From the NCBI RefSeq assembly GCF_041435195.1, contig NZ_CP108106.1:6611501-6675500 (forward strand): 64,000 nucleotides of DNA. Reading direction: 5' to 3'. The DNA is from Streptomyces sp. NBC_00224. Lineage in GTDB: Bacteria > Actinomycetota > Actinomycetes > Streptomycetales > Streptomycetaceae. The translations under genes and the position numbers were made by a program. The notes beneath the pieces are model-generated. The model saw only the letters and a list, made by a program, of their open reading frames with translations, was not told the origin of the DNA and made no database searches. This document shows positions 42,860-64,000 of this stretch, piece after piece. The stretch's first letter is position 1. Each line of letters begins with the position of its first letter.

Positions 42860-43306
42860 TCAGCCCTTGCGGGGCGGGGTGCCGGTCACCCAGATCATGC
42901 GCAGCGACAGCAGGCTCAGCCGCCAGCCGTCCGGGGTGCGGCGGGCCTTCGCGCTCACCAGGCTGCCGTTCGCGAATATCGGAGCGCGGTCGGCGTCCTC
43001 CGGATGGTCGGAGGGGTGGTGCACGTGGGTGGAGACGATGTTGGCGCGCAAAGAGGCGTGGTCGCCGTCGATTTCGACCACGGCGGGCGAGTTGATGTGC
43101 TGGGTGAGGGCGAACGCCGCCAGCGCCGTGCTGTGGTACTCGGCGAGGCCCGCGATCCCCTCGTGCCGGCTCATCGGGAACTCGACGACGGCGTCCTCGG
43201 TGAACAGCCCCCGGGCCCAGGCGTCATCGAGCTTGTCGTCGTCCAGATTGATCAGGTAGCGGTCGAGCAGTCCCGCCACATCGGCGGTGGATTGGCTTGA
43301 GGTCAT
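42860..43306 (-). CDS. SnoaL-like (NTF2-fold) protein, first gene of polyketide cluster
   Basis: This 148-residue SnoaL_4/NTF2-fold protein contains LLDRYLINLDDDKLDDAWAR, LFTEDAVVEFPM, GIAGLAEYHSTALAAF, TQHINSPAVVEIDGDHASLR and GWRLSLLSLRMIWVTGTP. Family members act as polyketide cyclases, hydroxylases (with a partner) or dehydratases on small aromatic substrates. It is transcribed divergently from the first flavin monooxygenase gene, and the two promoters overlap. It is therefore likely part of the pathway. The exact step is unknown. Confidence 0.82.
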   Translation of the reverse strand: MTSSQSTADVAGLLDRYLINLDDDKLDDAWARGLFTEDAVVEFPMSRHEGIAGLAEYHSTALAAFALTQHINSPAVVEIDGDHASLRANIVSTHVHHPSDHPEDADRAPIFANGSLVSAKARRTPDGWRLSLLSLRMIWVTGTPPRKG

Positions 43307-43323
43307 GGTTGAGGATGACTCCG

Positions 43324-43387
43324 GTACAGGCCTCTGACCAAGACTCCTTGTAGCGGAGTTGACGTACTTGTCAAAGGCCTGTACTAG
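43324..43387. promoter_or_regulatory. Overlapping divergent promoters with two nested inverted repeats
   Basis: Outer arms GTACAGGCCT (43324-43333) and AGGCCTGTAC (43375-43384) are perfect inverted repeats. Inside them, TTGAC-N6-GTCAA spans 43359-43374. The plus-strand promoter reads TTGACG (43359-43364), 17 bases, then TACTAG (43382-43387). The minus-strand promoter reads TTGACA (43374-43369), 16 bases, then TACAAG (43352-43347). A regulator bound at the arms would block both promoters. Confidence 0.65.
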
Positions 43388-43449
43388 CAGCTATTTACGC
43401 TCGGTTGCCCCCTCGGGATACTGGAGAAACGCCAGTCGGAAGAGGGTAG

Positions 43450-44919
43450 ATGTCTAACTTTGACGCGGACGTAATTATCGCGGGAGCCGGCCCCACTGGA
43501 CTCATGCTCGCAGGCGAACTGCGCCTGAACGGCGTGTCCGTGATTGTCGTCGATCGCCTTGCCGAGCCGATACAGCAGTCGCGTGCTCTGGGATTCTCGG
43601 CGCGTACCATCGAGGAATTCGGCCAGCGTGGACTGCTGGAGCGTTTCGGTGGTGTGGACGTCATTCCGGTCGGCCATTTCGGCGGAGTGTCCATCGATTA
43701 CCGGTTGGTCGAGGGCGGTTCGTACGGGGCTCGGGGCATCCCCCAGTCGCGCACCGAGGGCGTGCTGGCCGGCTGGGCCGGGCAGCTGGGCGCCGAGGTC
43801 CGCCGCGGGGTCGAGGTCACCGGCCTGGAGGACGGCGCCGACGGGGTCACCGTGGAGGTCTCCACGCCCGACGGGCCGGCCACGCTGCGCGGCCGTTACC
43901 TGGTGGGCGCGGACGGCGCCCGCAGTGTGGTGCGCAAGCTCGCGGGCATCGACTTCCCGGGCACCGACCCGGCCATCGAGCTCCGGTTCGCCGACATCAG
44001 CGGGGTGCCGTTGCGCCCGCGCTTCAGCGGCGAGCGGGTGCCCGGCGGCATGGTCATGGTGCTGCCGCTCGGCCCGGAGCGCTGCCGGATCGTCTACTTC
44101 GACCGGAGCGAGCCGCTCCGCAAGAGCCCGGACCCGATCACCTTCGACGAGGTGGCCGAGACGTTCAAGCGCCTGTCCGGTGAGGACATCAGCGGCGCCA
44201 CGGTGCACTGGGTCTCCACCACCACCGATGTGAGCCGCCAGGCCGCCGAGTACCGCAAGGGCCGGGTCTTCCTGGCCGGCGACGCCGCGCACATCCACCT
44301 GCCCATCGGAGCCCAGGGAATGAGCGCCGGAGTGCAGGACGCGGTGAACCTCGGCTGGAAGCTCGCCCTGGAGATCAAGGGCCAGGCCCCCGAGGGCCTG
44401 CTCGACACGTACCACTCCGAGCGCCACCCGGTCGGTGCCCGGGTGCTCACCAACACGCTCGCCCAGCGGATCCTCTATCTGGGCGGCGACGAGATCACCC
44501 CGCTGCTCGATGTCTTCACCGAGCTCACCGGGTTCGAGGACGTCCAGAAGACGCTGATCGGGATGGTCACCGGACTGGACATCCGGCACGACGTGGGCGA
44601 GGGCGACCATCCGCTCCTCGGCCGCCGTCTCAAGGACGAGGAACTGGTGGTCGACGGCAAGAAGACCACCAACTTCGAGCTGCTGGCGGCCGGCAAGGCC
44701 GTCCTGTTCGACCTCACCGACGACTCCCACCTGCGAGAGCTCGCCGCGGGCTGGGCCGACCGTGTCACCACGGTCACCGCAGAGCAGCACGACTGCGACT
44801 CGGGCCTGGACGCCTTCCTTGTGCGTCCCGACGGCTACGTCGCCTGGGTCGCCCCCTCCGCCTCGCGCACGGAGGGGCTCGCCGAATCCCTCAACCGATG
44901 GTTCGGCCGAGCCAACTGA
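43450..44919 (+). CDS. FAD-dependent aromatic polyketide hydroxylase (PgaE/JadH/AlpK-like)
   Basis: This 489-residue flavoprotein hydroxylase of the UbiH/PHBH fold shows FAD GxGxxG VIIAGAGPTGLMLAGELRL, the DG motif GRYLVGADGARSVVRKLAG and the GD motif GRVFLAGDAAHIHLPIGAQG, with a thioredoxin-like C-terminal domain ending FLVRPDGYVAWV. It hydroxylates a tetracyclic angucycline core using NAD(P)H and O2. It lies directly before the tandem-ABM oxygenase gene. By analogy with the kinamycin AlpK/AlpJ pair it may be the hydroxylase acting alongside ring opening, which is inference. It has the promoter described at 43359-43387. Confidence 0.92.
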   Translation: MSNFDADVIIAGAGPTGLMLAGELRLNGVSVIVVDRLAEPIQQSRALGFSARTIEEFGQRGLLERFGGVDVIPVGHFGGVSIDYRLVEGGSYGARGIPQSRTEGVLAGWAGQLGAEVRRGVEVTGLEDGADGVTVEVSTPDGPATLRGRYLVGADGARSVVRKLAGIDFPGTDPAIELRFADISGVPLRPRFSGERVPGGMVMVLPLGPERCRIVYFDRSEPLRKSPDPITFDEVAETFKRLSGEDISGATVHWVSTTTDVSRQAAEYRKGRVFLAGDAAHIHLPIGAQGMSAGVQDAVNLGWKLALEIKGQAPEGLLDTYHSERHPVGARVLTNTLAQRILYLGGDEITPLLDVFTELTGFEDVQKTLIGMVTGLDIRHDVGEGDHPLLGRRLKDEELVVDGKKTTNFELLAAGKAVLFDLTDDSHLRELAAGWADRVTTVTAEQHDCDSGLDAFLVRPDGYVAWVAPSASRTEGLAESLNRWFGRAN

Positions 44920-44967
44920 GCTGGGCTTACTCCCTTTCCACCCGTACACCCGAAGGAAGCGAAGAAC

Positions 44968-45657
44968 ATGCCCAAGATTTCCTCCGATGACCAGAACCTG
45001 ACCGTCCTCAACCTCTTCTCCACGGACGCCCCGGAGAAGCAGGAGGGCCTGCTCGGCGCGATGCGCGAGATCGTCGACTCGGCCGCCTACCCGGGCTGGA
45101 TGTCCTCCACCGTGCACGCCGGTGTGGACAAGCCGGGCACGGCCAACTTCATCCAGTGGCGCAGCCGCGCCGACCTGGAGGAGCGGTACGACGGCGAGGA
45201 GTTCAAGCACCGTACGCTGCCGCTCTTCGGCGAGCTGACCACCTCGATCCGCCTGCTGCAGAACGAGATCGGCTACTCGCAGTCCAAGTCGGGCGACGGC
45301 GTCGAGATCTCCCCGGAGCGCACCGACTACACCGTGATCGCGGTCTTCGGTGTCGAGGAGAAGAACCAGGGCGACCTGGTCGACGCGCTCGGCCCGTCGA
45401 TGAAGTTCCTGAACGACGTTCCCGGTTACATCTCCCACACGATCCTCAAGGGCGTCGCCGCCCGCGGGCTTGAGGGCTCCTTCGTGGTCTCCTACTCGCA
45501 GTGGGAGAGCAAGGAGGCGTTCGACGCCTACCAGGCCGTGCCGCAGGGCGACAAGCCCGCCGCCCGCCAGGACGCCGAGAAGCGCACCGGCTCGCTCCTG
45601 ACGTCGGTGGACTCCAACACCTACCGCGTGGTCCACACCCGCGCGGCCGGCGAGTAA
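44968..45657 (+). CDS. Tandem antibiotic-biosynthesis-monooxygenase (JadG/GilOII/AlpJ-like ring-B opening oxygenase)
   Basis: This 229-residue protein has two ABM (ferredoxin-like) modules. Module 1 contains LTVLNLFSTDAPEKQEGLL and KPGTANFIQWRSRADLEERY. Module 2 contains DYTVIAVFGVEEKNQGDLVD and LEGSFVVSYSQWESKEAFDA. The layout and start (MPKISSDDQNL) fit the family that cleaves ring B of angucycline quinones in jadomycin, gilvocarcin and kinamycin synthesis; I recall this similarity and could not align it. GAAGGAAG precedes ATG 44968. Its presence argues that the product is not a simple angucycline but a rearranged one. Confidence 0.85.
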   Translation: MPKISSDDQNLTVLNLFSTDAPEKQEGLLGAMREIVDSAAYPGWMSSTVHAGVDKPGTANFIQWRSRADLEERYDGEEFKHRTLPLFGELTTSIRLLQNEIGYSQSKSGDGVEISPERTDYTVIAVFGVEEKNQGDLVDALGPSMKFLNDVPGYISHTILKGVAARGLEGSFVVSYSQWESKEAFDAYQAVPQGDKPAARQDAEKRTGSLLTSVDSNTYRVVHTRAAGE

Positions 45658-45683
45658 CACCTAGCTCCACCGCAGCACCACGG

Positions 45684-45716
45684 AACGCCCGGCTCCGCTC
45701 CTGGAGCCGGGCGTTT
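45684..45716 (+). terminator. Hairpin terminator after ABM gene
   Basis: AACGCCCGGCTCC pairs with GGAGCCGGGCGTT around a 6-base loop, followed by TTT. It ends the first two-gene transcript. Confidence 0.85.
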
Positions 45717-45832
45717 CGGCGTTCCGGGCCCGAACGGGCAGGGGAGACGCTCCGGTTCGCGACCTGACGACACCTGACGCCGACGTGACACTTCTGCGTC
45801 AGGCACCTGCTCATCGCTGCCGGTTCTCTGAC

Positions 45833-45958
45833 ATGGCTGCGGTGTATTTGCGGAACCTGACCGAACCGGACGTAGACCTGAACCGGGGCGCCTTGAACGG
45901 CGAGCGGGATCAGAAGACCCTTGAATACATGATCCGGGGCGTGGTTCGCCACCGCTGA
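45833..45958 (+). other. Short open frame (41 codons) in the 414-base gap before the PKS operon
   Basis: Between the terminator at 45716 and the cyclase gene at 46072, one open frame from ATG 45833 encodes MAAVYLRNLTEP, then DVDLNRGALNGERD and KTLEYMIRGVVRHR. The start YLRNL recalls ribbon-helix-helix proteins, but it has no convincing ribosome site and the third-position GC bias is weak. It may be a decayed gene fragment or chance. The rest of the gap should hold the promoter of the PKS operon; I found no clear -35/-10 pair there. Confidence 0.25.
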
Positions 45959-46071
45959 TCCTCTCGCTCAACTCCCGTTCATGGCCCTCGTATTCGGGTG
46001 CGTCCGACGTCGTACGCGCCAGGAGCACGGCCAGTGCCGGATCAACCGCAACCGCTGAGGAGCGAAAACGT

Positions 46072-46401
46072 ATGCACAGCACGCTGATCGTCGCCCGCAT
46101 GGAACCCGGTTCGAGCACCGACGTCGCCAAACTGTTCTCCGAGTTCGACGCGACGGACATGCCGCACCTGATGGGAACGCGGCGCCGCCAGCTGTTCTCG
46201 TACCGGGGCCTCTACTTCCACCTGCAGGACTTCGACGCGGACAACGGCGGTCAGCTGATCGAGGCCGCGAAGAACGACCCGCGGTTCATCGGGATCAGCA
46301 ACGACCTCAAGCCGTTCATCCAGGCGTACGACCCGGCCACCTGGCGCTCGCCCGCCGACGCCATGGCCGCCCGCTTCTACAACTGGGAGGCGGGCGCGTG
46401 A
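46072..46401 (+). CDS. TcmI-family polyketide cyclase
   Basis: This 109-residue ABM-fold cyclase is of the TcmI/WhiE-ORFVII family: [70 protein letters not shown] and [18 protein letters not shown]. It guides later ring closure of the aromatic polyketide. GAGGAGC (46057-46063) precedes ATG 46072. The stop TGA overlaps the GTG of KS-alpha (4-base overlap), so translation is coupled. Confidence 0.93.
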
Positions 46402-47672
46402 CAACGCCTCGCAGGGTCGTCATCACGGGGATGGAGGTGCTCGCCCCGGGTGGAATCGGCAGCAAGAACTTCTGGAGCCTCCTCAGCGAGGGCCGCACGG
46501 CGACGCGCGGCATCACCTTCTTCGACCCGACGCCGTTCCGCTCCCGGGTGGCCGCCGAGATCGACTTCGACCCGTACGAGCACGGTCTGAGCCCGCAGGA
46601 GGTCCGCCGCATGGACCGCGCCGGGCAGTTCGCGGTCGTCGCCTCGCGCGGCGCGGTCGCCGACAGCGGCCTGGAGCTCGGCGGACTCGACCCGTACCGC
46701 ATCGGCGTCACCGTCGGCAGCGCGGTCGGCGCGACCATGGGACTCGACGAGGAGTACCGGGTCGTCAGCGACGGCGGCCGGCTCGACCTCGTGGACCACA
46801 AGTACGCGGCCCCGCACCTCTACAACCACCTGGTGCCGAGCTCGTTCGCGGCCGAGGTCGCCTGGGCGGTCGGGGCCGAGGGCCCCAGCACCGTGGTGTC
46901 CACCGGCTGCACCTCCGGCATCGACTCGGTCGGCTACGCCGTCGAGCTGATCCGCGAGGGCTCCGCCGACGTCATGATCGCCGGATCCTCGGACGCGCCG
47001 ATCTCGCCGATCACGATGGCGTGCTTCGACGCGATCAAGGCCACCACGAACCGCTACGACGAGCCCGAGACGGCGTCGCGGCCGTTCGACAACTCCCGCA
47101 ACGGCTTCGTGCTCGGCGAGGGCACCGCCTTCTTCGTGCTCGAAGAGCTGGAGAGCGCACAGAAGCGCGGCGCCCACATCTACGCGGAGATCGCGGGCTA
47201 CGCCACGCGCTCCAACGCGTACCACATGACCGGTCTGCGCCCCGACGGCGCGGAGATGGCCGAGGCGATCCGGGTGGCGCTCGACGAGGCGCGGATGAAC
47301 GGCGACGAGATCGACTACATCAACGCCCACGGCTCCGGCACCAAGCAGAACGACCGCCACGAGACGGCGGCCGTCAAGCGGATCCTCGGCGACCACGCGT
47401 ACCGGACGCCGATGAGCTCCATCAAGTCGATGGTCGGGCACTCGCTCGGCGCGATCGGCTCGATCGAGATCGCCGCCTCCGCGCTCGCCATGGAGTACAA
47501 CGTCGTGCCGCCCACGGCGAACCTGCACACGCCCGACCCCGAGTGCGACCTGGACTACGTGCCGCTGACCGCCCGCGACCGGAAGACCGACGCGGTCCTC
47601 TCGGTCGGCAGCGGCTTCGGCGGTTTCCAGAGCGCCGTGGTGCTCGCCCGTCCCGAGAGGAAGCTCGCATGA
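46398..47672 (+). CDS. Type II PKS ketosynthase alpha (KS-alpha)
   Basis: This 424-residue condensing enzyme of the minimal PKS has its active-site cysteine (Cys171) in [16 protein letters not shown]. Catalytic histidines lie in [15 protein letters not shown] and [14 protein letters not shown]. It forms a heterodimer with KS-beta to build the poly-beta-ketone chain on the ACP. It starts at GTG 46398, overlapping the cyclase gene, and its TGA overlaps the ATG of KS-beta, as in nearly all type II clusters. Confidence 0.98.
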
Positions 47673-48883
47673 CGTCGTCCGTGGTGGTCACCGGCCTGGG
47701 GGTGGCGTCCCCCAACGGGCTCGGCATCCAGGACTACTGGGCGGCGACCGTCGGTGGCAAGAGCGGCATCGGCCGCATCACCCGCTTCGACCCGTCGTCC
47801 TACCCGGCCAAGCTGGCCGGCGAGGTCCCGGGCTTCGTCGCGGAGGACCTGCTGCCGAGCCGGCTGCTCCCGCAGACCGACCGGGTGACCCGGCTCGCGC
47901 TGGTCGCGACCGACTGGGCGCTCGCCGACGCGGGCATCACCCCGGCCGAACTCCCCGAGTTCGACATGGGCGTGGTGACCGCGAGCGCGGCCGGCGGCTT
48001 CGAGTTCGGCCAGGGCGAGCTCCAGGCCCTGTGGTCCAAGGGCAGCCAGTACGTCTCGGCGTACCAGTCCTTCGCCTGGTTCTACGCGGTCAACAGCGGC
48101 CAGATCTCCATCCGCAACGGGATGAAGGGCCCCAGCGGCGTGGTCGTCAGCGACCAGGCCGGCGGTCTCGACGCGGTGGCGCAGGCCCGGCGGCAGATCC
48201 GCAAGGGCACCGCGCTGATCGTCTCCGGCGCCATCGACGCCTCGGTCTGCCCGTGGGGCTGGGTGGCCCAGCTGGCCAGCGACCGGCTCTCCACCAGCGA
48301 GGAGCCGACCCGCGCCTATCTGCCCTTCGACAGCGAGGCGGCAGGTTACGTACCCGGCGAGGGCGGCGCGATCCTGATCATGGAGGACGCCGAGGCGGCC
48401 CGCGCCCGCGGCGCCCGGATCTACGGCGAGGTCTCCGGATACGGCTCGACCATCGACCCGAAGGCCGGCTCCGGCCGTCCGCCGGGGCTGCGCAAGGCCA
48501 TCGAACTCGCCCTGGCCGACGCGGGGGTCGCCCCGGGCGACGTGGACGTGGTCTTCGCCGACGCGGCCGCCGACCCCGAGCTCGACCGCCAGGAGGCCGA
48601 GGCGCTCAACGCGGTCTTCGGCACCCGGGGAGTCGCGGTCACCGCGCCCAAGACGATGACCGGACGGCTCTACTCGGGCGCGGCCCCGCTGGACCTGGCC
48701 GCCGCCTTCCTCGCCATCAAGGACGGGGTCATCCCGCCCACCGTGCACATCGACCCGGCCGCCGAGTACGACCTGGACCTGGTCCTGGGCGAGCCGCGCA
48801 CCGCCGAGGTGCGCACCGCCCTCGTCCTCGCCCGCGGCTACGGCGGGTTCAACTCCGCCGTGGTCGTCCGCGCAGCCGAGTAG
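47669..48883 (+). CDS. Type II PKS chain-length factor (KS-beta)
   Basis: This 404-residue homologue of KS-alpha has the active-site Cys replaced by Gln163 in [15 protein letters not shown], the hallmark of the KS-beta/CLF subunit. It decarboxylates malonyl-ACP and sets chain length. The downstream tailoring set fits a decaketide (C20). It is translationally coupled to KS-alpha through ATGA at 47669-47672. The KS fold is intact, with no truncation. Confidence 0.97.
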
Positions 48884-48948
48884 CCGGTGGGCCGCACCGG
48901 CCCAACGGACAGACGACACGCCGTACTTACTTTGGAAAGGGAAATCCC

Positions 48949-49215
48949 ATGGCCACCACGTTCACCCTCGACGACCTCAAGCGCATCCTCCTTGAGGCAG
49001 CGGGCGCCGAGGAGGGCGTCGACCTGGACGGCGAGATTCTGGACACCGAGTTCGAGGTCCTGGGATACGAGTCGCTCGCGCTCCTGGAGACGGGCGGCCG
49101 GATCGAGCGTGAGTACGGCATCTCGCTGGACGACGACGCGCTGACCGACGCCACCACGCCGCGCGCCCTCATCGACGTCGTCAACGCCCAGCTGTCCTCC
49201 GCGTCCGCCGCCTGA
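48949..49215 (+). CDS. Acyl carrier protein of the type II PKS
   Basis: This 88-residue four-helix ACP is phosphopantetheinylated on Ser42 in the motif LGYESLALLETGGRIE. It carries the growing polyketide. GGAAAGGGAAA precedes ATG 48949. The Sfp-type transferase at 56406 is the likely activating enzyme. Confidence 0.97.
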   Translation: MATTFTLDDLKRILLEAAGAEEGVDLDGEILDTEFEVLGYESLALLETGGRIEREYGISLDDDALTDATTPRALIDVVNAQLSSASAA

Positions 49216-49238
49216 GCCACAGACAAGGAAGAACGACA

Positions 49239-50024
49239 ATGACCGAGAACACCGCACGGGTCGCACTGGTGACGGGTGCCACGAGCGGCATCGGGCTCTC
49301 CGTGGCCCGTCTGCTCGCCTCCCAGGGACACCGGGTCTTCATCGGCGCGCGCAACGCCGACAACGTCACCGAGACCGTCAAGCAGCTCCAGGGCGAAGGC
49401 CTCGATGCCGACGGCTCGGCGCTCGACGTCACCGACGCCGACAGCGTCAAGGCGTTCGTCCAGGCGGCCGTCGACCGCTTCGGCACCGTCGACGTGCTGG
49501 TCAACAACGCCGGCCGGTCCGGTGGCGGCGTCACCGCCGACATCGAGGACGAGCTGTGGGACGCCGTCATCGACACCAACCTGAACAGCGTCTTCCGGGT
49601 CACCCGCGAGGTCCTGAACACCGGCGGCATGCGCCACAAGGACCGCGGCCGGATCATCAACATCGCCTCCACCGCGGGCAAGCAGGGCGTCGTCCTCGGC
49701 GCCCCGTACTCGGCCTCCAAGCACGGCGTGGTCGGCTTCACCAAGGCCCTGGGCAACGAGCTCGCGCCCACCGGCATCACGGTCAACGCCGTCTGCCCCG
49801 GATACGTCGAGACGCCGATGGCGCAGCGCGTGCGCCAGGGCTACGCCGCCGCGTACTCCACCTCCGAGGACGCGATCCTGGAGAAGTTCCAGTCCAAGAT
49901 CCCGCTCGGCCGCTACTCCACCCCGGACGAGGTCGCGGGCCTGGTCGGCTACCTGGCCTCCGACACCGCCGCCTCCATCACCGCGCAGGCGCTCAACGTC
50001 TGCGGCGGCCTCGGCAACTTCTGA
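49239..50024 (+). CDS. Polyketide C9-type ketoreductase (SDR, ActIII-like)
   Basis: This 261-residue short-chain reductase has NADPH motif ALVTGATSGIGLSVARLLAS, NNAGRSGGG and catalytic YSASKHGVVGF. The signature INIASTAGKQGVVLGAPYSA is the ActIII-type C9 ketoreductase stretch. It reduces the first-ring keto group and so fixes the ring pattern of the nascent polyketide. Its position after the ACP is canonical for angucycline-type clusters. Confidence 0.96.
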   Translation: MTENTARVALVTGATSGIGLSVARLLASQGHRVFIGARNADNVTETVKQLQGEGLDADGSALDVTDADSVKAFVQAAVDRFGTVDVLVNNAGRSGGGVTADIEDELWDAVIDTNLNSVFRVTREVLNTGGMRHKDRGRIINIASTAGKQGVVLGAPYSASKHGVVGFTKALGNELAPTGITVNAVCPGYVETPMAQRVRQGYAAAYSTSEDAILEKFQSKIPLGRYSTPDEVAGLVGYLASDTAASITAQALNVCGGLGNF

Positions 50025-50052
50025 TCGCCAAGTTCCTGAAGGAGGAGCGGCT

Positions 50053-50988
50053 ATGACGACCCGTGAGGTCGAGCACGAGATCACCATCGACGCCCCCGCC
50101 GCCGCCGTGTACCGGCTGCTGGCGGAGGTGACCAACTGGCCGCGGATCTTCCCGCCCACGATCTACGTGGACCAGGTCGGCGAGCACGACAACCACGAGC
50201 GCATCCGGATCTGGGCCACCGCCAACGGCGAGGCCAAGAACTGGACCTCGCACCGCGAGCTGGACCCGGAGGGCCTGCGCATCACCTTCCGCCAGGAGGT
50301 CACCACGCCTCCGGTCGCGGCGATGGGCGGCACCTGGATCATCGAGACCCTGGCCGAGAACTCCTCGCGGGTGCGGCTGCTGCACGACTACCGGGCGATC
50401 GACGACGACCCCAAGGGCCTGGCCTGGATCGACGAGGCGGTCGACAAGAACAGCCGCTCGGAGCTGGCCGCGCTCAAGCAGAACGTCGAACTGGCCCACG
50501 CGACCGAGGAGGTGACGTTCTCGTTCACCGACACCGTCATCGTCCAGGGCTCGCCCAAGGACCTGTACGACTTCATCAACGAGGCGGACCTCTGGTCCGA
50601 GCGACTGCCGCACGTGGCCGTCGTCCGGCTCACCGAGGACACCCCCGGGCTCCAGACGCTGGAGATGGACACCCGCGCCAAGGACGGCTCGGTGCACACC
50701 ACCAAGTCGTACCGGGTGACCTTCCCGCACCACAAGATCGCGTACAAGCAGGTCACGCTGCCCGCGCTGATGACCCTGCACACCGGGATCTGGACGTTCG
50801 AGGAGACGCCCGAGGGCACGGCCGCCTCCTCGCAGCACACCGTCACGCTCAACACGGACAACATCGCGAAGATCCTCGGCCCCGAGGCCACCGTCGCGGA
50901 CGCCCGTGAGTACGTGCACACCGCGCTGTCCACCAACAGCACGGCCACGCTCAACCACGCCAAGACGTACGCCGAGCAGAAGGGCTGA
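50053..50988 (+). CDS. Didomain aromatase/cyclase
   Basis: This 311-residue protein has two START/SRPBCC modules. Module 1 contains VEHEITIDAPAAAVYRLLAE and TNWPRIFPPTIYV. Module 2 contains VTFSFTDTVIVQGSPKDLYD and INEADLWSERLPHV. Didomain ARO/CYC enzymes work on C9-reduced chains and aromatise the first ring. With the C9 reductase, this fits a C7-C12 first cyclisation. GGAGGAG precedes ATG 50053. Confidence 0.96.
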   Translation: MTTREVEHEITIDAPAAAVYRLLAEVTNWPRIFPPTIYVDQVGEHDNHERIRIWATANGEAKNWTSHRELDPEGLRITFRQEVTTPPVAAMGGTWIIETLAENSSRVRLLHDYRAIDDDPKGLAWIDEAVDKNSRSELAALKQNVELAHATEEVTFSFTDTVIVQGSPKDLYDFINEADLWSERLPHVAVVRLTEDTPGLQTLEMDTRAKDGSVHTTKSYRVTFPHHKIAYKQVTLPALMTLHTGIWTFEETPEGTAASSQHTVTLNTDNIAKILGPEATVADAREYVHTALSTNSTATLNHAKTYAEQKG

Positions 50989-50995
50989 GCCAGAA

Positions 50996-56409: not shown

Positions 56410-57074
56410 ACGCGACCCGTACGCCGCTGCGGGCGGCCCCCGCGGCGGGACGGCTGCACCTGCTGGTGTTCCGCCCGCCCGCCGAGGAGGTGGCGCAGGT
56501 GTGCCCGCTGATGCGGGCCCTGGACGAGTTGGAGTCGGCGCGCGCGGCGTCCTACGTCTCGGTGCGCGACCGGATCCAGTACGTGGCCGCGCACGCCACC
56601 CTGCGGGGCCTGCTCGCCGCGTACACCGGCCTCGAACCCGGCCGGATCGTGCTCGGCCGCGGCGAGGAGCCGTACGGGAAGCCGCAGTTGATCGATCCGC
56701 CCGTGCCGCTCCACTTCAACCTCTCGCACAGCCACGGCCTGATCGCCATCGGGGTCGCGGCGGACCCGGTGGGCGTCGACGTCCAGCGCGTCCCGTCGCC
56801 CGAGGCCGTCGAGATGGTGCTGCCCCGGCTGCACCCGCAGGAGCGCGAGGAACTGCGCGCGCTGCCCACCGCCGAGCGGACGGTGGCGTTCGCCCGGCTG
56901 TGGACCCGCAAGGAGGCCTATCTCAAGGGCCTGGGCACCGGACTCACCCGCTCACCCGCGGCGGACTACCTGGGCGACCGCAACGCCCGGGGCCGCCCGC
57001 ACGGCTGGACGGTGCGCAATGTGCCCGTACAGCCGGGCTACGCGGCCGCGGCCGCGCTCCGCAACCCGACGTGA
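56406..57074 (+). CDS. Sfp-type 4'-phosphopantetheinyl transferase
   Basis: This 222-residue protein has the Mg/CoA-binding motif GVDVQRVPSPEAVEMV and the catalytic WTRKEAYLKGLGTGL. PLHFNLSHSHGLIAIGVA is also present. It converts apo-ACP to holo-ACP. It is cluster-linked, as in a minority of type II clusters, and has a 4-base overlap with the exporter gene. Confidence 0.94.
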   Translation: MNATRTPLRAAPAAGRLHLLVFRPPAEEVAQVCPLMRALDELESARAASYVSVRDRIQYVAAHATLRGLLAAYTGLEPGRIVLGRGEEPYGKPQLIDPPVPLHFNLSHSHGLIAIGVAADPVGVDVQRVPSPEAVEMVLPRLHPQEREELRALPTAERTVAFARLWTRKEAYLKGLGTGLTRSPAADYLGDRNARGRPHGWTVRNVPVQPGYAAAAALRNPT

Positions 57075-57133
57075 CCGTGAAGGCAGTCGATTCCGCACCA
57101 AGGATCCGCAACCTACAGGGGGAACAGAACATC

Positions 57134-58714
57134 ATGCCGACCACGCCGACCACACAGTCCTCCGCCGAGGTCTCCGACCGGCTGGGCGAACTCAGCGAAC
57201 GCAAGGAGCAGGCTGTCCGCGGCCCGAGCGACAAGGCGACCGAGGCGCAGCACGCCAAGGGCAAGCTGACCGCGCGCGAGCGGATCGAACTCCTTCTGGA
57301 CAAGGGCAGTTTCACCGAGGTGGAGCAGCTGCGCAGGCACCGGGCGACCGGCTTCGGCCTGGAGGCCAAGAAGCCGTACACGGACGGTGTCATCACCGGC
57401 TGGGGCACGGTCGAGGGCCGTACGGTCTTCGTCTACGCGCACGACTTCCGTATCTTCGGCGGCGCCCTGGGCGAGGCTCACGCCTCCAAGATCCACAAGT
57501 TGATGGACATGGCCATCGCGGCCGGGGCGCCGCTGGTGTCCCTGAACGACGGCGCCGGCGCCCGTATCCAGGAGGGCGTCTCGGCGCTGGCGGGCTACGG
57601 CGGCATCTTCCAGCGCAACACCCGGGCCAGCGGGGTGATCCCGCAGATCAGCGTGATGCTCGGCCCGTGCGCGGGCGGCGCCGCCTACTCGCCCGCGCTC
57701 ACGGACTTCGTGTTCATGGTCCGCGAGACCTCGCAGATGTTCATCACCGGCCCGGACGTGGTGCAGGCGGTGACCGGCGAGGAGATCTCCCAGAACGGGC
57801 TGGGCGGCGCGGATGTGCACGCCGGGATCTCGGGTGTGGCGCACTTCGCGTACGACGACGAGGAGACCTGCCTCGCCGAGGTCCGCTATCTGCTCTCGCT
57901 GCTGCCGTCCAACAACCGGGAGATGCCGCCGCTGGCGCAGACCTCGGACCCGGTGGACCGCGAGGGCGCGGCCCTGCTCGACCTGGTGCCGGCCGACGGC
58001 AACCGCTCGTACGACGTGCGCTCGGTGATCGAGGAGCTCGTCGACGAGGGCGAGTACATGGAGATCCACGCCAACTGGGCGCCCAACCTGGTGGTCGCGC
58101 TGGCCCGGCTCGACGGCCACGTCGTGGGCATCGTCGCCAACCAGCCCTCCGCCATGGCGGGCGTCCTGGACATCAAGGCGAGTGAGAAGGGCGCGCGGTT
58201 CGTCCAGTTCTGCGACTCCTTCAGCATCCCGCTGATCACCCTCGTCGACGTCCCCGGGTTCCTGCCGGGCGTCGACCAGGAGCACGACGGCATCATCCGG
58301 CGCGGCGCGAAGCTGCTGTACGCGTACTGCAACGCCACCGTTCCGCGCATCTCGGTAGTGCTGCGCAAGGCGTACGGCGGTGCGTACATCGTGATGGACT
58401 CGCGCTCGATCGGCGCCGACCTCGCCTTCGCCTGGCCCACCAACGAGATCGCGGTGATGGGCGCCGAGGGTGCGGCGAACGTGGTGTTCCGCCGGGAGAT
58501 CGCCGCTGCCGACGACCCCGACGCGATGCGCAAGCAGAAGATCGACGAGTACAAGAACGAGCTGGTGCACCCCTACTTCGCGGCGGAGCGCGGCCTGGTC
58601 GACGACGTCATCGACCCGCGCGAGACCCGCTCGGTGCTGTGCCGCTCGGTCGCGATGCTCATCGCCAAGGACGCCGAACTGCCCCGCCGCAAGCACGGCA
58701 ACCCGCCCCAGTAG
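57134..58714 (+). CDS. Acyl-CoA carboxylase beta (carboxyltransferase) subunit, AccB-type
   Basis: This 526-residue carboxyltransferase has KGKLTARERIELLLDKGSF, SLNDGAGARIQEGVSALAGY, MLGPCAGGAAYSPALTDF, GVAHFAYDDEETCLAEVRYL and VDVPGFLPGVDQEHDGIIRR. The specificity position equivalent to residue 422 of streptomycete PccB/AccB is Ile (RKAYGGAYIVMDSRS) rather than Asp, which is known to allow acetyl-CoA as well as propionyl-CoA. It likely boosts malonyl-CoA supply. The alpha subunit must come from elsewhere. Upstream, ACAGGGGGAACAG gives a ribosome site for ATG 57134. Confidence 0.93.
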   Translation: MPTTPTTQSSAEVSDRLGELSERKEQAVRGPSDKATEAQHAKGKLTARERIELLLDKGSFTEVEQLRRHRATGFGLEAKKPYTDGVITGWGTVEGRTVFVYAHDFRIFGGALGEAHASKIHKLMDMAIAAGAPLVSLNDGAGARIQEGVSALAGYGGIFQRNTRASGVIPQISVMLGPCAGGAAYSPALTDFVFMVRETSQMFITGPDVVQAVTGEEISQNGLGGADVHAGISGVAHFAYDDEETCLAEVRYLLSLLPSNNREMPPLAQTSDPVDREGAALLDLVPADGNRSYDVRSVIEELVDEGEYMEIHANWAPNLVVALARLDGHVVGIVANQPSAMAGVLDIKASEKGARFVQFCDSFSIPLITLVDVPGFLPGVDQEHDGIIRRGAKLLYAYCNATVPRISVVLRKAYGGAYIVMDSRSIGADLAFAWPTNEIAVMGAEGAANVVFRREIAAADDPDAMRKQKIDEYKNELVHPYFAAERGLVDDVIDPRETRSVLCRSVAMLIAKDAELPRRKHGNPPQ

Positions 58715-58742
58715 GCCCGACTCCTCCAGAGAGGTGACCGAC

Positions 58743-59039
58743 ATGAGCGAGATGACCCAGATCACCGAGCCCGCCGCCGAGCCTGCCGCGCCTGCCGAAA
58801 TGACCCTGGAGCACTGCCGTGAGCTGCTGAGAGTGGAGCGCGGTAATCCGGATCCGGAGGAACTGGCGGCGCTGGCCGCGCTGTTCTTCGCACACTTCTC
58901 GGCCATCGAGGCCCGGGAGGAGGCGGCCCGGGTCATGATCCCCAGGCAGCGCCGCTCCGCGAGCTGGCGCCGCACCGACCGGGCGACGGGCTTCGACGGC
59001 CCGCGCACCTGGCGGGCGGGCGGCCCGGTGCTCGCCTGA
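58743..59039 (+). CDS. Acyl-CoA carboxylase epsilon subunit
   Basis: This 98-residue protein has the short epsilon-subunit motif LRVERGNPDPEELAALAALF and the Arg/Trp-rich tail PRQRRSASWRRTDRATGF. Epsilon subunits stimulate streptomycete carboxylase complexes. AGAGAGGTGA precedes ATG 58743. It follows the beta gene by 28 bases and ends the rightward transcript. Confidence 0.9.
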   Translation: MSEMTQITEPAAEPAAPAEMTLEHCRELLRVERGNPDPEELAALAALFFAHFSAIEAREEAARVMIPRQRRSASWRRTDRATGFDGPRTWRAGGPVLA

Positions 59040-59745
59040 CGAAATTCCTGATGGTCCGTCAATTCACGGCCGTCCAGCGCCTTTCCCCTTGTGGGGAGCG
59101 GTGCGCAGCGCCCCGAGCGGGCCGCCCCGACCCGGCGGCCCCGCCCGGGGCGCGCCGCTGTTCAGGGCCCCCGGACTTTACTTGACACAGACTCTCCCGG
59201 ACGACCATTCTGTGCGGTGAATGGGGGTCTTCGTCATGCAGGTGTTGCCGTACTGCAAGCTACAGCCCGATCACAGGGAGCGCTGGGGGGCGCGAGCCGC
59301 GCCCGACTGAGGCGCAGTACCGGCGAATTCAAGCCATCGGCCAGCATGACGCCACTTGGACACCTGTTATTTAACTTGCTGTCAGCAAAGTTGCCTGAAT
59401 TCCGTAAACCTCCAGGCCGATGTGGCGAACATCATGTCATGGCATCGTCAACGTCAGAGGCGCGCCAAGATGGCCGGATTATGTGAGTCGCGGCGAGTTA
59501 CCCTTGGTTGAATCAACGGATCTACCAGTGTTCCGCTTCCGCATGGCGGGCACTGGTTGACGGGGGCTCCCGGCCGTGATCACGTATGGAAACGAAGAGG
59601 GCACCCTGTCCGATCTCGCTCAATAACCGACACAGTTTATTTGTTATTTGCTCGAACCTCTTTGAATTCCGTAGCAGCGGTCTGTAGGTTCGTCGGTGGA
59701 TCCGGATCGGATCTCGTATTGGACTCACTCAGATGGGGGAGGGAC
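59040..59745 (+). promoter_or_regulatory. 705-base AT-richer regulatory gap upstream of the pathway regulator
   Basis: No gene is seen here. The region is clearly less GC-rich (59340-59720) than its surroundings. It contains a TTGACA-N18-CATTCT pair (59182-59211) and a near-palindrome AACTTGCTGTCAGCAAAGTT (59373-59392). Paired repeats TGTTATTT/GAATTCCGTA occur twice (59365/59397 and 59642/59664). The promoter TTGAAT-N17-TAGGTT (59662-59690) lies about 55 bases before the regulator start. The second GAATTCCGTA overlaps that -35. Confidence 0.6.
59662..59690 (+). promoter_or_regulatory. Candidate promoter of the pathway regulator
   Basis: TTGAAT (59662-59667) and TAGGTT (59685-59690) are separated by 17 bases. 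The predicted start near 59697 gives a leader of about 49 bases before ATG 59746. Confidence 0.6.
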
Positions 59746-60546
59746 ATGACTCGCGGGGGAGGCATGACTCAGAGTTCGTCAGAGGCAGTGCTGGAGCCTC
59801 ATATACCTGTCCAGCGTGGTCCAGGTGGACCACACCTGATCGAAGAGGGCGTGTCGGAAGCGGTACGCAGGGTGGCGGGCCTCTCCCGGGGCCGGCGGAT
59901 CCTCGTGGTCGACAGTGACGTCGACGGCGCGGAGTCCCTGGTGTGCCGACTGCGCAGGCACGGCCACGAAGCCATCGGCGTGAAGAGCGGCAGCACCGCC
60001 CTGCAGGCGTACGAGGACGTCGACCTCGTCCTGCTCGACCTCGAACTTCCGGACCTGGACGGCCTGGAGGTCTGCCGGGCCATCCGCTCGGTCAGCGGCA
60101 TCCCGGTCATCATCGTCACGGCCCGCGGCTCCGAGCTCGACTGCGTCCTCGGCCTCCAGGCCGGCGCGGACGACTATGTGGTCAAGCCGTACGGCTTCCG
60201 GGAATTAATGGCACGGATCGAAGCCGTCATGCGACGAGCGAGGTTCCAGCCGCCCGTGGCCAGAGAGATCTTGCACGGGCGGTTGCGCATTGACGTGAGC
60301 TCCCGCGAGGTGAGCCTGGACGGCCGCGAGGTGGGGCTGACCCGCAAGGAATTCGATCTGCTCTGCCTGCTCGCGTCCCATCCGGACACCGTCATTCCGC
60401 GTAAGCGCCTGCTGCAGCAGGTCTGGGGTGACTCATGGTCGCGCCGCACTGTCGACACCCATGTCAGCAGTCTTCGCGGCAAGCTCGGCGACAGCGGATG
60501 GATCATTACCGTGCGAGGGGTCGGCTTCAAGCTGGGCAACGGGTGA
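59746..60546 (+). CDS. Atypical OmpR-type response regulator (JadR1-like), likely pathway activator, with in-frame TTA codon
   Basis: This 266-residue protein has a 48-residue N-terminal extension, then a receiver domain (RRILVVDSDVDGAESL) and a winged-helix output domain (GLTRKEFDLLCLLA, VDTHVSSLRGKLG, VRGVGFKLGNG). Receiver residues are Asp98 (LLDLELPDLDG), Thr125 and Lys147. One of the two usual Mg-binding acidic residues is Ser57 (VVDSD). No histidine kinase is adjacent. This is the pattern of angucycline regulators such as JadR1, which respond to ligands rather than phosphorylation. Codon TTA at 60205-60207 (GFRELMARIE) makes it a bldA target. ATG 59746 is chosen for GGGGGA spacing; ATG 59764 is an alternative. 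Confidence 0.92.
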   Translation: MTRGGGMTQSSSEAVLEPHIPVQRGPGGPHLIEEGVSEAVRRVAGLSRGRRILVVDSDVDGAESLVCRLRRHGHEAIGVKSGSTALQAYEDVDLVLLDLELPDLDGLEVCRAIRSVSGIPVIIVTARGSELDCVLGLQAGADDYVVKPYGFRELMARIEAVMRRARFQPPVAREILHGRLRIDVSSREVSLDGREVGLTRKEFDLLCLLASHPDTVIPRKRLLQQVWGDSWSRRTVDTHVSSLRGKLGDSGWIITVRGVGFKLGNG

Positions 60547-60861: not shown

Positions 60862-61263
60862 CTACGGGTTGAGGACCCATGCGGAGTTGTGCTGGTTGAA
60901 GCCGATGTGCGGGTAGTAGTCCACCGCGGCCGGCGCAGACAGCAGGATGACCTTGGCCTGCGGGGCCTCCTTCTGCGTGGCGTCGATCAGCGCCCGGCCG
61001 ATCCCCGAGCGCTGGTAGTCGCCGCTCACCGCGATGTCCGAGAGGTACGTCGCGTAGCTGAAGTCGGAGATGCTGCGGGCGATGCCGATGAGCCTGCCCT
61101 CCGCACGGGCCACGACCACGAGATTGGCGTTCCGCACCATGGCGGCGAACCGCGTCACGTCCTCGATCGGACGGCGCTCACCGAGCCCGGAGGAGCGGTA
61201 GACCTCAAGGACCTCCTCCAGGTCCAGGTCGGCACCCTCCACACGCTCAATCTTCCAGGTCAC
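60862..61263 (-). CDS. GNAT N-acetyltransferase, candidate hydrazinosuccinate-type acetyltransferase (FzmR/KinN-like)
   Basis: This 133-residue GNAT has acetyl-CoA loop VSGDYQRSGIGRALIDATQK, strands LVVVARAEGRLIGIARSISD and ATYLSDIAV, and the terminal PHIGFNQHNSAWVL. Single-domain GNATs of this size are common. What makes it notable is the 17-base overlap with the lyase gene upstream (GTG 61263) and the GS gene before that. In fosfazinomycin and kinamycin pathways the GNAT acetylates hydrazinosuccinate before the lyase acts. Assignment is by context, not by residue-level proof. Confidence 0.8.
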   Translation of the reverse strand: MTWKIERVEGADLDLEEVLEVYRSSGLGERRPIEDVTRFAAMVRNANLVVVARAEGRLIGIARSISDFSYATYLSDIAVSGDYQRSGIGRALIDATQKEAPQAKVILLSAPAAVDYYPHIGFNQHNSAWVLNP

Positions 61264-62533
61264 GAAGTTGCTCCAATCGATCGAGAATCACGCCGTGGTT
61301 GACGAGGAAACGCTCAGGGCGCAGCTGGCCGATGTCCATGCCCTCCTGGCGCAGCGTGTCCCCGAAGTGCTCGCCGGTGGCGATCGTACGGTTCGCGGCG
61401 GCCTGGACCCCGCGGTAGGCCTTCTCCCGCTCCACCCCGTCCGCCAGCAGGTCGGCGAGGACCGCCGAGCTGTAGACGAGGCCGTCGGTACGGTCGATGC
61501 CCTCGCGCATCCGGTCCGGGAACACCTTGAGGTCACGGACGAGCTGGGTCGCCATGGTGGCCTGGAAGTGGCCCACCGCCAGAGCGTCCGGCAGGATCAC
61601 CCGCTCCACCGACTGGTGCGCCAGATCGCGCTCGTGCCACAGCGCCACGTTCTCCAGGGCGGTGGCCGCGTAACCGCGCAGCAGCCGCGCCAGACCGTTC
61701 AGCCGCTCGCTCGTGGTCGGGTTCCGCTTGTGGGGCATGGCGCTGGAGCCCTGGTACGCGGAGGTGCGCTGCTCCTCCACCTCGCGGACCTCGGTGCGCT
61801 GCAACAGCCGCAGCTCCAGGGCGATCTGCTCGATGCTCGCGCCGAGCAGGGCGACCGCCTGGAGCAGCTGGGCGTGCCGGTCGCGGGCGACGACCTGGCT
61901 CGGCGCCGGCTCGACACCGAGCCCGAGCTCCTCGCAGACGTACGCCTCCACCGAGGGGTCGATCAGCGCGTACGTGCCGACCGAGCCGGAGATGGTGCCC
62001 ACCGCCACGGCCTTGCGGGCCGCCTTGAGGCGGGTGAGCGAGCGGTCCACGGAGAAGGCGAACTGCGCCAGCTTGTGGCCGAACGACGTCGGCTCGGCGT
62101 GCACCCCGTGGGTGCGGCCGACGATCACGGTCTCCCAGTGCTCAAGGGCGCGCTCGACCAGGACCTTGCGCAGCTCCACCCCGGCCGCGAGGACCAGGTC
62201 GGTGGCGCGGGCCAGGTTGTAGCCGAGGGAGGTGTCGACGAGGTCGTAACTCGTCATGCCGAGGTGGACCCAGCGGGCCGACTCGTCGGGGATGCCCTCG
62301 CAGTAGGCGGCGAGGAACGAGAGCACTTCGTGGTCCCGCTCCCGCTCGATCTCCTGCACCCGCTCGGGAGTGGGGACCGAGGCCCGCCGCATGTCCTCGA
62401 CGGCGTCCTCGGGCACCCGGCCCAGGCGCACCTGGGCCTCGGAGGCGAGGATCTCCACCCGGACCCAGGTCGCGTAGCGCGCCCGGTCCGAGAAGATGTC
62501 CGCCATCGCGGGCAGGGTATAGCGGGGAATCAT
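61247..62533 (-). CDS. Adenylosuccinate lyase-family enzyme, candidate hydrazinosuccinate-type lyase (FzmQ/KinK-like)
   Basis: This 428-residue fumarase/aspartase-superfamily lyase starts [20 protein letters not shown] and has [20 protein letters not shown] and signature loop [17 protein letters not shown]. It has the B. subtilis PurB form, not the long actinobacterial housekeeping PurB form, whose sequence is quite different, so it is likely an accessory copy. In N-N pathways such a lyase eliminates fumarate from acetylhydrazinosuccinate. The gap to the GS gene is 52 bases. If not pathway-specific, it could be a second purine lyase. Confidence 0.88.
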
Positions 62534-62585
62534 ATGGGCCAGCACCCCCAGGGTGAGCTTGTCGACAGGTGGTTCGGACGGGGCA

Positions 62586-64000
62586 TCAGTAGGCCTCGAA
62601 GTATTCGCGCTGCTCCCACTCGGTGACCTGGCCCTCGGCCGGCCGCTCCTGGGCGCGCCAGGCCTCGAAGCGGGAGACCTCGCTCTCCTTGAGCTTGGCG
62701 AGCGTGGCGGCCAGCGGCTTGCCGAGCAACTCGGCGCCCTGACCGGCCCGGAAGGCCTCCAGAGCCTCGCCGAGGGACTGCGGCAGGGTCTCGTGCGCGT
62801 CCTCGCCGCCGGCAGGGCGCGGGGCCGCGCCCGGGGTGGCGGTGAGCCCGTCGAAGCCCGCGGAGAGCTGGGCCGCGATGGCGAGGTACGGGTTGGCGGT
62901 GGGCTCGCCGGTCCGGTTCTCGACGTGGGTCGCGGAGCCGCCGCCGACCACGCGGAGCATCACGCTGCGGTCCTCGTAGCTCCAGCCGATCCTGGTCGGC
63001 GAGAGCGAGAAGTCCGAGCTGAGGCGGCGGTAGCCGTTGACCGTGGGCACGGAGAGCAGACACAGGTCGCGGGCGCGGGCCAGCAGGCCGTCGATGTACG
63101 CCTTGCCCTGGTCCGAGATGCCGCCCTCGGCGGCCGCGAAGATGTTGCGGCCGGTCTTCGCGTCCATCACCGACTGGTGCAGGTGCCAGCCGCTCGGGTC
63201 GAAGCTGTCGACGCGCGGCAGCGACATGAAGGTGGCGTGGTAGCCCTGCCGCGTCGCGGTCTGCTTGACCATGGTGCGGAACAGCAGCATCGCGTCGGCG
63301 GTGTCCAGCGCGTGCATCGGGTTGAAGGTCGTCTCGATCTGGCCCGGGCCCGACTCGTGCTCGATCGACCGCAGCGGCAGGCCGAGTTCGAGCAGCTTGA
63401 GGGCGAGCGGGCTGGTGAAGTGGGCGACCGAGTCGTAGTTGGAGTCCAGGTTGAACTGGTAGCCCGAGTTCACCGCCTCGACCTCGGGAGCGGCGCCCTG
63501 GAGGCCGAAGCCGTTGCCCGCGTTTCCGGGGGGACCGGGCAGGCGCTTGGTCAGGTACCACTCGACCTCAAGGCCGAGGACCGGCGTCAGGTCGCGGGCC
63601 GCGTACCGGGCGATGACCTGGCGCAGCACATTGCGCGCGGAGAGCGGGTGCGGGGAGCCGTCGCGCAGGTACTCGTCGCCGAGCACCCAGGCGGTGCGCG
63701 GCCCCTCGTGCGGCAGTATCTGGAAGGTCAGCGGGTCCGGCACCAGGACGAAGCTGCCCGCGCCGGCGATCTCGTCGACGCCGACGCCCGGGTCGGAGAG
63801 GTAGTCGAGCGCGGCCGCGTGGCCGGTGTCGAAGATGAAGGGACCCGAGCTGAAGTCCATGCCGTTGCGCAGGACCGAGCGGAAGGCGTCGACGGTGAGC
63901 GTCTTGGAGCGGGCCAGACCGTGCGGGTCGCCGAAGACCAGGCGGACGAGGTCGACCTCGTCGAGCGACGCCTCGATCTGCTCGGCGGCGGCGGCCTGTT
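62586..64000 (-). CDS. Glutamine synthetase-family enzyme, 5' end beyond window (candidate glutamylhydrazine-forming, FzmN-like)
   Basis: The frame stays open from 62586 to the window edge (47 codons past the internal Met at 63860), reading EVDLVRLVFGDPHGLARSKT just upstream, a normal GS N-terminal domain. So the gene is truncated by the window and does not start at 63860. Catalytic blocks are GLEVEWYLTKR, SIEHESGPGQIETTF, FDPSGWHLHQSVMD, YRRLSSDFSLSPTRIGW and SATHVENRTGEPTANPYLA. The sequence departs from core GlnA, as in GS paralogues that ligate amines or hydrazine to glutamate. It is co-directional with the lyase and GNAT genes. Confidence 0.88.
   Translation of the reverse strand, partial: QAAAAEQIEASLDEVDLVRLVFGDPHGLARSKTLTVDAFRSVLRNGMDFSSGPFIFDTGHAAALDYLSDPGVGVDEIAGAGSFVLVPDPLTFQILPHEGPRTAWVLGDEYLRDGSPHPLSARNVLRQVIARYAARDLTPVLGLEVEWYLTKRLPGPPGNAGNGFGLQGAAPEVEAVNSGYQFNLDSNYDSVAHFTSPLALKLLELGLPLRSIEHESGPGQIETTFNPMHALDTADAMLLFRTMVKQTATRQGYHATFMSLPRVDSFDPSGWHLHQSVMDAKTGRNIFAAAEGGISDQGKAYIDGLLARARDLCLLSVPTVNGYRRLSSDFSLSPTRIGWSYEDRSVMLRVVGGGSATHVENRTGEPTANPYLAIAAQLSAGFDGLTATPGAAPRPAGGEDAHETLPQSLGEALEAFRAGQGAELLGKPLAATLAKLKESEVSRFEAWRAQERPAEGQVTEWEQREYFEAY

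Follow-up and report, generated by a model that had tools for sequence, protein, structure and literature searches.

The stretch of DNA analysed here (the window; 64,000 nucleotides, C1:6611501-6675500) lies in the three-contig, 9.18 Mb genome of Streptomyces sp. NBC_00224, which is close to Streptomyces melanogenes. A further 60 kb downstream of the window was added to the analysis, and positions above 64000 continue the window numbering. The region contains a type II polyketide synthase (PKS) operon, a six-gene hydrazino cassette and a homologue of AlpH, which together point to a kinamycin-class (diazobenzofluorene) biosynthetic gene cluster; we assign this reading a probability of roughly 0.8. 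The closest named loci are those of S. melanogenes JCM 4398, Streptomyces sp. ERV7 and Streptomyces sp. CBMA152, with DNA identities over the main pieces compared of approximately 94-97%, 93-96% and 87-93%, respectively. For JCM 4398 and CBMA152, the comparison covers about 21 kb round the glutamine-synthetase-like (GS) gene and 4 kb round the ketosynthase (KS) gene KS-alpha. Fifty genes of the region were compared with 19 loci, 12 of which span at least 50 kb, and the resulting gene tables hold best matches only.

The hydrazino cassette occupies 60862-67825, entirely on the minus strand. It is complete, with the gene order kinI-J-K-L-M-N (kinN-M-L-K-J-I when read from the window side) and gaps of -17, 40, 3, 18 and -4 bp between the genes. 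The first of them from the window side encodes a KinN/FzmQ-type N-acetyltransferase of the GNAT family (60862-61263); with the closest kin set aside, 14 of 16 loci have a GNAT that is 72-79% identical to it. It is followed by a KinM/FzmR-type N-acetylhydrazinosuccinate lyase (61247-62545; 64-80% identity to cassette lyases outside the closest kin), a KinL/FzmN-type GS-like ligase identified by sequence matches and a GS tree (62586-64091, running past the window edge at 64000), a KinK-type amidase (64095-65489, with an assumed TTG start), a KinJ-type heme enzyme of 639 residues (65508-67427) and a KinI-type ferredoxin (67424-67825). A GS-like ligase, an amidase, a GNAT and a PurB-like lyase are thus found in one set, the combination that marks a kin/lom/fzm-type cassette. 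The first-pass annotation, made on the window, had recognised the GS, lyase and GNAT as a trio and had expected an amidase beyond position 64000. The trio is real but incomplete: the amidase directly adjoins the GS gene, and the N-N-forming heme enzyme and the ferredoxin also lie past the edge in an operon that extends to 67825. These three genes contradict the outcome that would have spoken against the proposal, namely a lack of N-N chemistry genes beyond the window.

The KinJ-type protein is 64% identical to SAM23877_7494 of Streptomyces ambofaciens and has no Pfam or NCBIfam match at an E-value of 0.001. All nine residues named by Kenney 2025 (PMC12154649), K356, C468, R497, M498, N501, H504, H541, R551 and R570, are present at their published numbers. 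The ferredoxin displays two CX2CX2CX3C motifs and an N-terminal extension, and is a candidate KinJ partner of the low-potential type.

A tree of GS sequences places 28 KinJ-linked rows on one side of a branch with a support of 100/100, and six paralogues from the same genome elsewhere on long branches, which are flagged. The paralogues represent six of the eight other GS-domain matches of the genome; L140, which scores the same as L139, and the weak L144 are not included. Four rows of the KinJ-linked clade are unlabelled; L013, L027 and L029 cover only 0.2-1.1 kb upstream of the GS gene, and L014 holds a partial KinJ. The first-pass annotation had called for a comparison of the cassette GS with housekeeping copies; in this tree, the cassette GS stands apart from the six paralogues. 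A lyase tree built with a quick method has long branches and a support of 16 at the PurB placement, and is not used as evidence.

The polyketide half extends over 42860-60546 and lies on the plus strand, except for the SnoaL_4 protein gene at 42860-43306. The first enzyme is an AlpK-like flavin adenine dinucleotide (FAD) hydroxylase/monooxygenase (43450-44919), whose best PDB match is 6j0z (791 bits), followed by FlsO1 (686 bits). The entry 6j0z is titled 'putative angucycline-like polyketide oxygenase', and we take it to be AlpK. The adjacent gene encodes an AlpJ/JadG-family ring-opening oxygenase of 229 residues (44968-45657), an ABM protein that aligns over its full length with the 241-residue 'anthrone oxidase-like' protein 5f9p (280 bits) and is 49-65% identical to the ABM gene product in 14 of the 19 loci. 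These PDB entries are presumed relatives of AlpJ and AlpK. In the ABM protein, earlier described as a tandem-ABM oxygenase, Pfam detects a single ABM unit (121-190), although the alignment to 5f9p covers the whole chain.

A TcmI-type polyketide cyclase (46072-46401; PF04673 Cyclase_polyket, 145 bits) precedes the minimal PKS, which comprises KS-alpha (46398-47672; NCBIfam fabF family), KS-beta or chain length factor (47669-48883; sequence matches) and an acyl carrier protein (ACP; about 48934-49197, start approximate), 75% identical to the ACP of AMCC400023. The KS-alpha protein is 98-99% identical in S. melanogenes, CBMA152 and ERV7. An open reading frame at 48887-49144 was considered for the ACP and rejected, as it lies in the wrong frame and matched nothing. 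A ketoreductase (KR; 49239-50024) and an aromatase/cyclase (ARO/CYC; 50053-50988) share 86% and 79% identity with the FabG and the aromatase/cyclase of AMCC400023, respectively. Two further FAD enzymes follow, an oxygenase in the AlpF position (50990-52468; 66% identical to its positional counterpart in AMCC400023) and a hydroxylase in the AlpG/JadH position (52527-54065; CabE 648 bits, PgaE 609 bits); these labels follow the alp gene order. Every gene class named in the first-pass annotation (KS-alpha, KS-beta, ACP, KR, ARO/CYC, TcmI cyclase, three flavin oxygenases, ABM, GNAT, lyase and GS) is present where it had been placed.

A second AlpJ-like ABM gene, 80% identical, is found at C1:8376160-8376846, 1.7 Mb away. 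It was considered as a sign of a second angucycline cluster, a possibility rejected because none of the other 49 queried genes occurs in the 36 kb fetched around it. Two proteins of this ABM family are likewise listed for CBMA152 and for S. melanogenes.

The AlpH homologue (87695-88777, minus strand) is one of two Methyltransf_2 proteins of the genome and lies about 20 kb beyond the cassette, separated from the PKS operon. It aligns over its whole length with AlpH (PDB 8h3t) at 433 bits, the next match scoring 267, in agreement with the earlier expectation of an AlpH-like gene beyond the edge. Among six residues examined, taken from Zhao 2023 (PMC10477347), M174, G202, K266, H267 and H270 are conserved, and E stands in place of D271. 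In all, 27 tblastn rows, some of which represent the same gene twice, contain the motif KH..H[D/E]W: E271 is seen here (three rows) and in ERV7 (one row), and D in the 23 others. Six partial or divergent rows gave no such motif.

The distribution of AlpH, KinJ, CreE and EboE was surveyed in 392 genomes drawn from the same genus. AlpH-like proteins (E ≤1e-90) occur in 15 of them, KinJ-like proteins (E ≤1e-20) in 24 and both in 14 (Fisher p = 1.6e-18, uncorrected for relatedness). The two genes share a contig in 13 of these 14 genomes, 0.6-20.4 kb apart, and lie on different contigs in the 700-contig assembly of G081. G147 has AlpH without a KinJ match, ten genomes that lack AlpH encode a more divergent KinJ (30-41%), and the AlpH match of G204 is of the 47% type only. 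Five AlpH genomes carry a second OMT-like protein at 47-49% (G107:C2:14462, G160:C131:15700, G147:C566:18587, G095:C34:16448 and G257:C3:199659), which in G107, G160 and G257 lies on the AlpH contig, 37-47 kb off.

The cassette and KS-alpha proteins of S. melanogenes JCM 4398 are 96-99% identical to those described here. About 15 kb separate KS-alpha from GS in JCM 4398 and CBMA152, whose contigs were matched by number and position, and the present cluster has the same spacing. The ERV7 cluster breaks off after the second FAD oxygenase gene and before the third (window 52481-52492; L145, L187); its PKS part is found on contig C40, at 707 kb of 1.76 Mb, and the rest on C51, which reflects either a translocation or a misassembly.

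Gene content and order, homology and active-site residues are direct observations, and the proposed pathway is modelled, reaction by reaction, on published work with homologues. The type II PKS, the KR, the cyclases and the AlpF/AlpG-type hydroxylases would yield dehydrorabelomycin or its hydroquinone, and the AlpJ- and AlpK-like oxygenases would then open and contract ring B; AlpJ-family enzymes are reported to cleave open ring B of the angucycline (PMC11181247). For the nitrogen moiety, the KinJ-KinI pair would couple nitrite with L-aspartate to form hydrazinosuccinate, which the GNAT would acetylate. The lyase would free acetylhydrazine and fumarate, the GS-like ligase would load acetylhydrazine onto glutamate, and the amidase would strip the acetyl group to leave glutamylhydrazine. 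The AlpH homologue is predicted to join glutamylhydrazine to the ring-opened polyketide in a Mannich reaction independent of S-adenosylmethionine, and loss of glutamate with oxidation would give rise to the diazo group. Kinamycin D or a close congener would be the most likely product. The production of kinamycin D by S. melanogenes WPF1 has been reported from liquid chromatography-mass spectrometry and high-resolution mass spectrometry, together with an antiSMASH match of 97% between the WPF1 type II PKS cluster and kinamycin (PMC12696212).

The nitrite for this route may be supplied in trans by a CreE/CreD pair, or drawn from cellular nitrite or nitrate. A single nitrosuccinate lyase of the genome exceeds its cut-off (806 versus 650 bits), and its gene adjoins that of a CreE-like monooxygenase at C1:1.39 Mb, 5.3 Mb from the cassette. 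The N-hydroxylase and nitrosuccinate lyase that had been expected past position 64000 thus exist as an adjacent pair, but at this distant site. The CreE-like N-hydroxylase is 60% and the nitrosuccinate lyase 67% identical to those of AMCC400023, and the nine genes scanned beside CreE show no sign of a diazo cluster. CreE-like proteins (E ≤1e-120) are found in at least 203 of the 392 genomes. Among the matches listed for the 14 genomes with both KinJ and AlpH, CreE lies within 37 kb on the KinJ or AlpH contig in eight (G081, G095, G204, G236, G248, G257, G275 and G289) and elsewhere in five (the present genome, G000, and G047, G107, G168 and G184); the fragmented assembly of G160 was not judged, and G168 has a second CreE match beyond those listed. 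Because CreE is distant in five of the 14, an in-cluster CreE/CreD pair is not universal. Nor is it taken as class-defining, since most KinJ clusters and genomes are without CreDE according to Kenney 2025 (PMC12154649), where KinJ is also described as using nitrate weakly in vitro.

The remaining genes of the polyketide half encode an alpha/beta hydrolase that is a possible chain-release thioesterase (54208-55089), an MFS exporter (55102-56409; TIGR00900, 165 bits, under its cut-off), a 4'-phosphopantetheinyl transferase (56406-57074; best match HetI, 79 bits, under its cut-off), the beta (57134-58714; PF01039, 674 bits) and epsilon (58743-59039; PF13822) subunits of an acyl-CoA carboxylase, and an OmpR-type response regulator (about 59770-60546, start approximate; 66-83% in 10 of the 16 loci outside the closest kin). 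An assignment of the hydrolase as the Alp1U epoxide hydrolase is not favoured, as the relatives listed for it are alpha/beta hydrolases, among which one bears the name LanU-like and a few are called thioesterase.

Beyond the cassette, a scan of the extended region revealed a sigma factor, an MMPL exporter (69706-71895), two NmrA-type reductases (71972-72835 and 74843-75670), a C26/GATase protein (74072-74836), a fourth FAD oxygenase (76911-78416) and a single-unit ABM protein (78457-78825). The C26/GATase protein is a candidate Alp1W by family match rather than by alignment to Alp1W itself, the loss of which abolished most kinamycin (Zhao 2023, PMC10477347). The fourth FAD oxygenase, the MMPL exporter and one NmrA-type reductase have matches in loci beyond the closest kin. 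For the exporter and the second reductase, identities of at least 57% outside these kin are found only in G047 and, for the reductase, also in Dactylosporangium. Among the loci compared, the single-unit ABM protein was matched only in ERV7, and one NmrA-type reductase reaches at most 34% outside ERV7.

An ebo metabolite-traffic operon, which contains the only EboE copy of the genome, extends from 80692 to about 87614, just before alpH. A role as a dedicated traffic system of the diazo pathway is weakened by the frequency and affinities of EboE, the one ebo protein compared: it occurs in 265 of the 392 genomes, and its nearer copies lie in genomes without a KinJ match (83-84%, for instance G384 and G028) rather than in the cluster-linked AMCC400023, G248 and G236 (73%).

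Many genes from PNPOx (42328) to CMD (91034) recur in other AlpH/KinJ clusters. The upstream RecQ, RNase HII and TetR35 genes have a match in none of the 19 loci, and the downstream DUF4192 gene was matched in ERV7 only. Within these limits, the single-unit ABM and carboxylase epsilon genes recur only in the closest kin. Judging from gene content, the cluster probably extends from about 42.3 to 91 kb.

Several observations weigh against the kinamycin assignment. The class is read for this strain from its genes, and the link to WPF1 runs via JCM 4398, whose cluster is assumed to be the same and was compared round the GS and KS-alpha genes. The CreE/CreD (alp2F/alp2G) pair lies outside the cluster, the AlpH homologue has E at a position where D271A impaired AlpH (Zhao 2023, PMC10477347), and the ebo operon is probably a bystander outside the pathway. 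Kenney 2025 (PMC12154649) numbers two arginines of KinJ both as R497/R551 and as R496/R550; only R497/R551 fits, since here S and I occupy positions 496 and 550. The Pfam and NCBIfam scans revealed neither an Alp1U-like epoxide hydrolase nor an O-acetyltransferase in the genes covered, a weak negative, as it relies on annotation and Alp1U and Lom6 are only 25% similar (Wang 2015, PMC4506494). Since kinamycin D requires A-ring tailoring, this absence counts against kinamycin D as the exact product. In a rather unlikely variant, the clade of the present genome, S. melanogenes, ERV7 and CBMA152 would make a kinamycin-class compound whose A ring is completed in another way. Clade-biased genes (the single-unit ABM, the two NmrA-type reductases and the MMPL exporter) would replace the Alp1U route, AlpH would work with E271, and nitrite would come from the unlinked CreE/CreD pair or from nitrate.

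The lack of clear kinamycin A-ring enzymes among the genes scanned could suit a fluostatin- or nenestatin-like cluster, with the same cassette and benzofluorene core and with main products that are otherwise tailored or carry no diazo group. Fluostatin clusters do carry the cassette while their dominant products are without the diazo group (PMC6470958), and FlsO1 is the second-best PDB match of the AlpK-like gene. We consider this origin unlikely, given the candidate Alp1W, of which the fluostatin cluster has no homologue according to Zhao 2023 (PMC10477347), and the reported kinamycin D of S. melanogenes WPF1 (PMC12696212). The opposite strands of the PKS operon and cassette, the 20 kb between cassette and AlpH, and the division of the ERV7 cluster over two contigs could also suggest two independent neighbours, a plain angucycline cluster and an unrelated hydrazine cassette serving another product. 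Such an arrangement is improbable, however, as AlpH, whose reported role is to join both halves, is present; AMCC400023 likewise combines the PKS core, the cassette and AlpH, as does NBC_01244 with other genes in place of the amidase and the KinN-type GNAT; and the KS-alpha to GS distance is maintained in S. melanogenes and CBMA152. Least probable is a chance juxtaposition of the PKS with housekeeping or catabolic enzymes (PurB, a GlnA-type enzyme and a generic GNAT). The cassette lyase does exceed the NCBIfam purB cut-off (TIGR00928, 397 versus 326 bits), but a separate PurB of the genome scores higher (417 bits) and is only 30% identical to it, eight other GS-domain matches exist, the GS groups with the KinJ-linked rows, and the six-gene cassette is complete. 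This explanation of the trio is rejected.

The locus is best described as a complete, slightly rearranged kinamycin-class cluster that represents a known pathway and not a new one. The earlier proposal of a diazo- or hydrazine-bearing angucycline pathway is supported by the complete cassette, the AlpH homologue and the AlpK/AlpJ-like oxygenases; its suggestion of a new congener overstated the novelty, as the kinamycin/lomaiviticin/fluostatin system is already known and none of the data indicate a new congener. No publication describing the cluster in this strain was listed by an open-access literature search, and the cluster type is already published. Diazobenzofluorenes are rare and potently cytotoxic, and only four Streptomyces species were counted as kinamycin producers (PMC12181624). 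A complete cluster in a three-contig genome is a further source of the pathway enzymes, confirming the known pathway rather than altering it. It is suited to testing the origin of nitrite for the N-N bond without in-cluster CreE/CreD, and its AlpH homologue is a natural D271E variant.

A comparison with related systems places the cluster closest to the kinamycin type. The lomaiviticin cluster contains extra starter-unit genes as well as deoxysugar and glycosyltransferase genes. In the window and the added 60 kb, the ACAD of AMCC400023 is unmatched, the second KS pair of AMCC400023 matches only the one KS pair present, and no sugar genes were recognised among the genes scanned. The fosfazinomycin (fzm) cluster, which we take to specify a phosphonate and to lack PKS and AlpH genes, offers a further comparison. 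It shares homologous GS, amidase, heme enzyme, GNAT and lyase genes (Wang 2018), and is without a cluster ferredoxin according to Kenney 2025 (PMC12154649). In the fluostatin system, FlsN3 is described as an amidase (PMC6470958).

The cryptic plasmid clusters of AMCC400023, NBC_01244 and NBC_00704 share KinJ, the ferredoxin, GS, the lyase, AlpH and a kin-type PKS operon, with the KS pair found in AMCC400023 and NBC_01244 only. These two differ from the present cluster by second KS-type, ACAD and aromatase genes and by in-cluster CreE/CreD, and NBC_01244 is without the amidase and the KinN-type GNAT. On the NBC_00704 plasmid, the operon passes from the ACP straight to TcmI (L127 9065-9783), with no KS-alpha or KS-beta listed there and none found by tblastn in 5001-97428; in CHD11 (L172-L175), no KS match was found in the first 80 kb of the contig.

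All six cassettes without the KinK amidase and KinN-type GNAT (L029-L033 and L128, the NBC_01244 plasmid, 30096-31744) carry a C45-family peptidase (82-96% alike) beside a 202-residue GNAT, a pair found in none of the 25 other loci compared. On the route to azaserine, the C45 peptidase AzsT cleaves the N-succinyl group off a hydrazinoacetyl intermediate (PMC10445470), and the C45 cassettes may well protect the hydrazine with succinyl instead of acetyl. Neither 'C45' nor 'peptidase' occurs in the main text of Kenney 2025 (PMC12154649), and the open-access search returned no paper linking this idea to the kin cassette. Umezawaea tangerina has a divergent cassette (L035; GS 55%, lyase 65%, GNAT 62%, amidase 49% and KinJ at a mere 30%). 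Neither a ferredoxin nor a PKS was matched in its fetched flank, and the cassette may serve a non-polyketide hydrazine product.

Compared by single proteins and publications, the kin cluster of Streptomyces murayamaensis and the alp cluster of S. ambofaciens differ from the present one in several respects. Here, CreE/CreD lies 5.3 Mb off, in contrast to its in-cluster position in alp, alpH is parted from the PKS operon and its product has E271, no Alp1U or O-acetyltransferase was recognised, and the KinJ-type enzyme is only 64% identical to that of S. ambofaciens. In the clusters of JCM 4398, ERV7 and CBMA152, the cassette proteins are 88-99% identical and the DNA 87-97% identical over the main pieces, ERV7 differing by its split at 52.48 kb over two contigs. 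With kin and alp, the cluster has in common the cassette genes, the kinI-N order, the KinJ residues, and the homologues of AlpH, AlpK, AlpJ and the minimal PKS.

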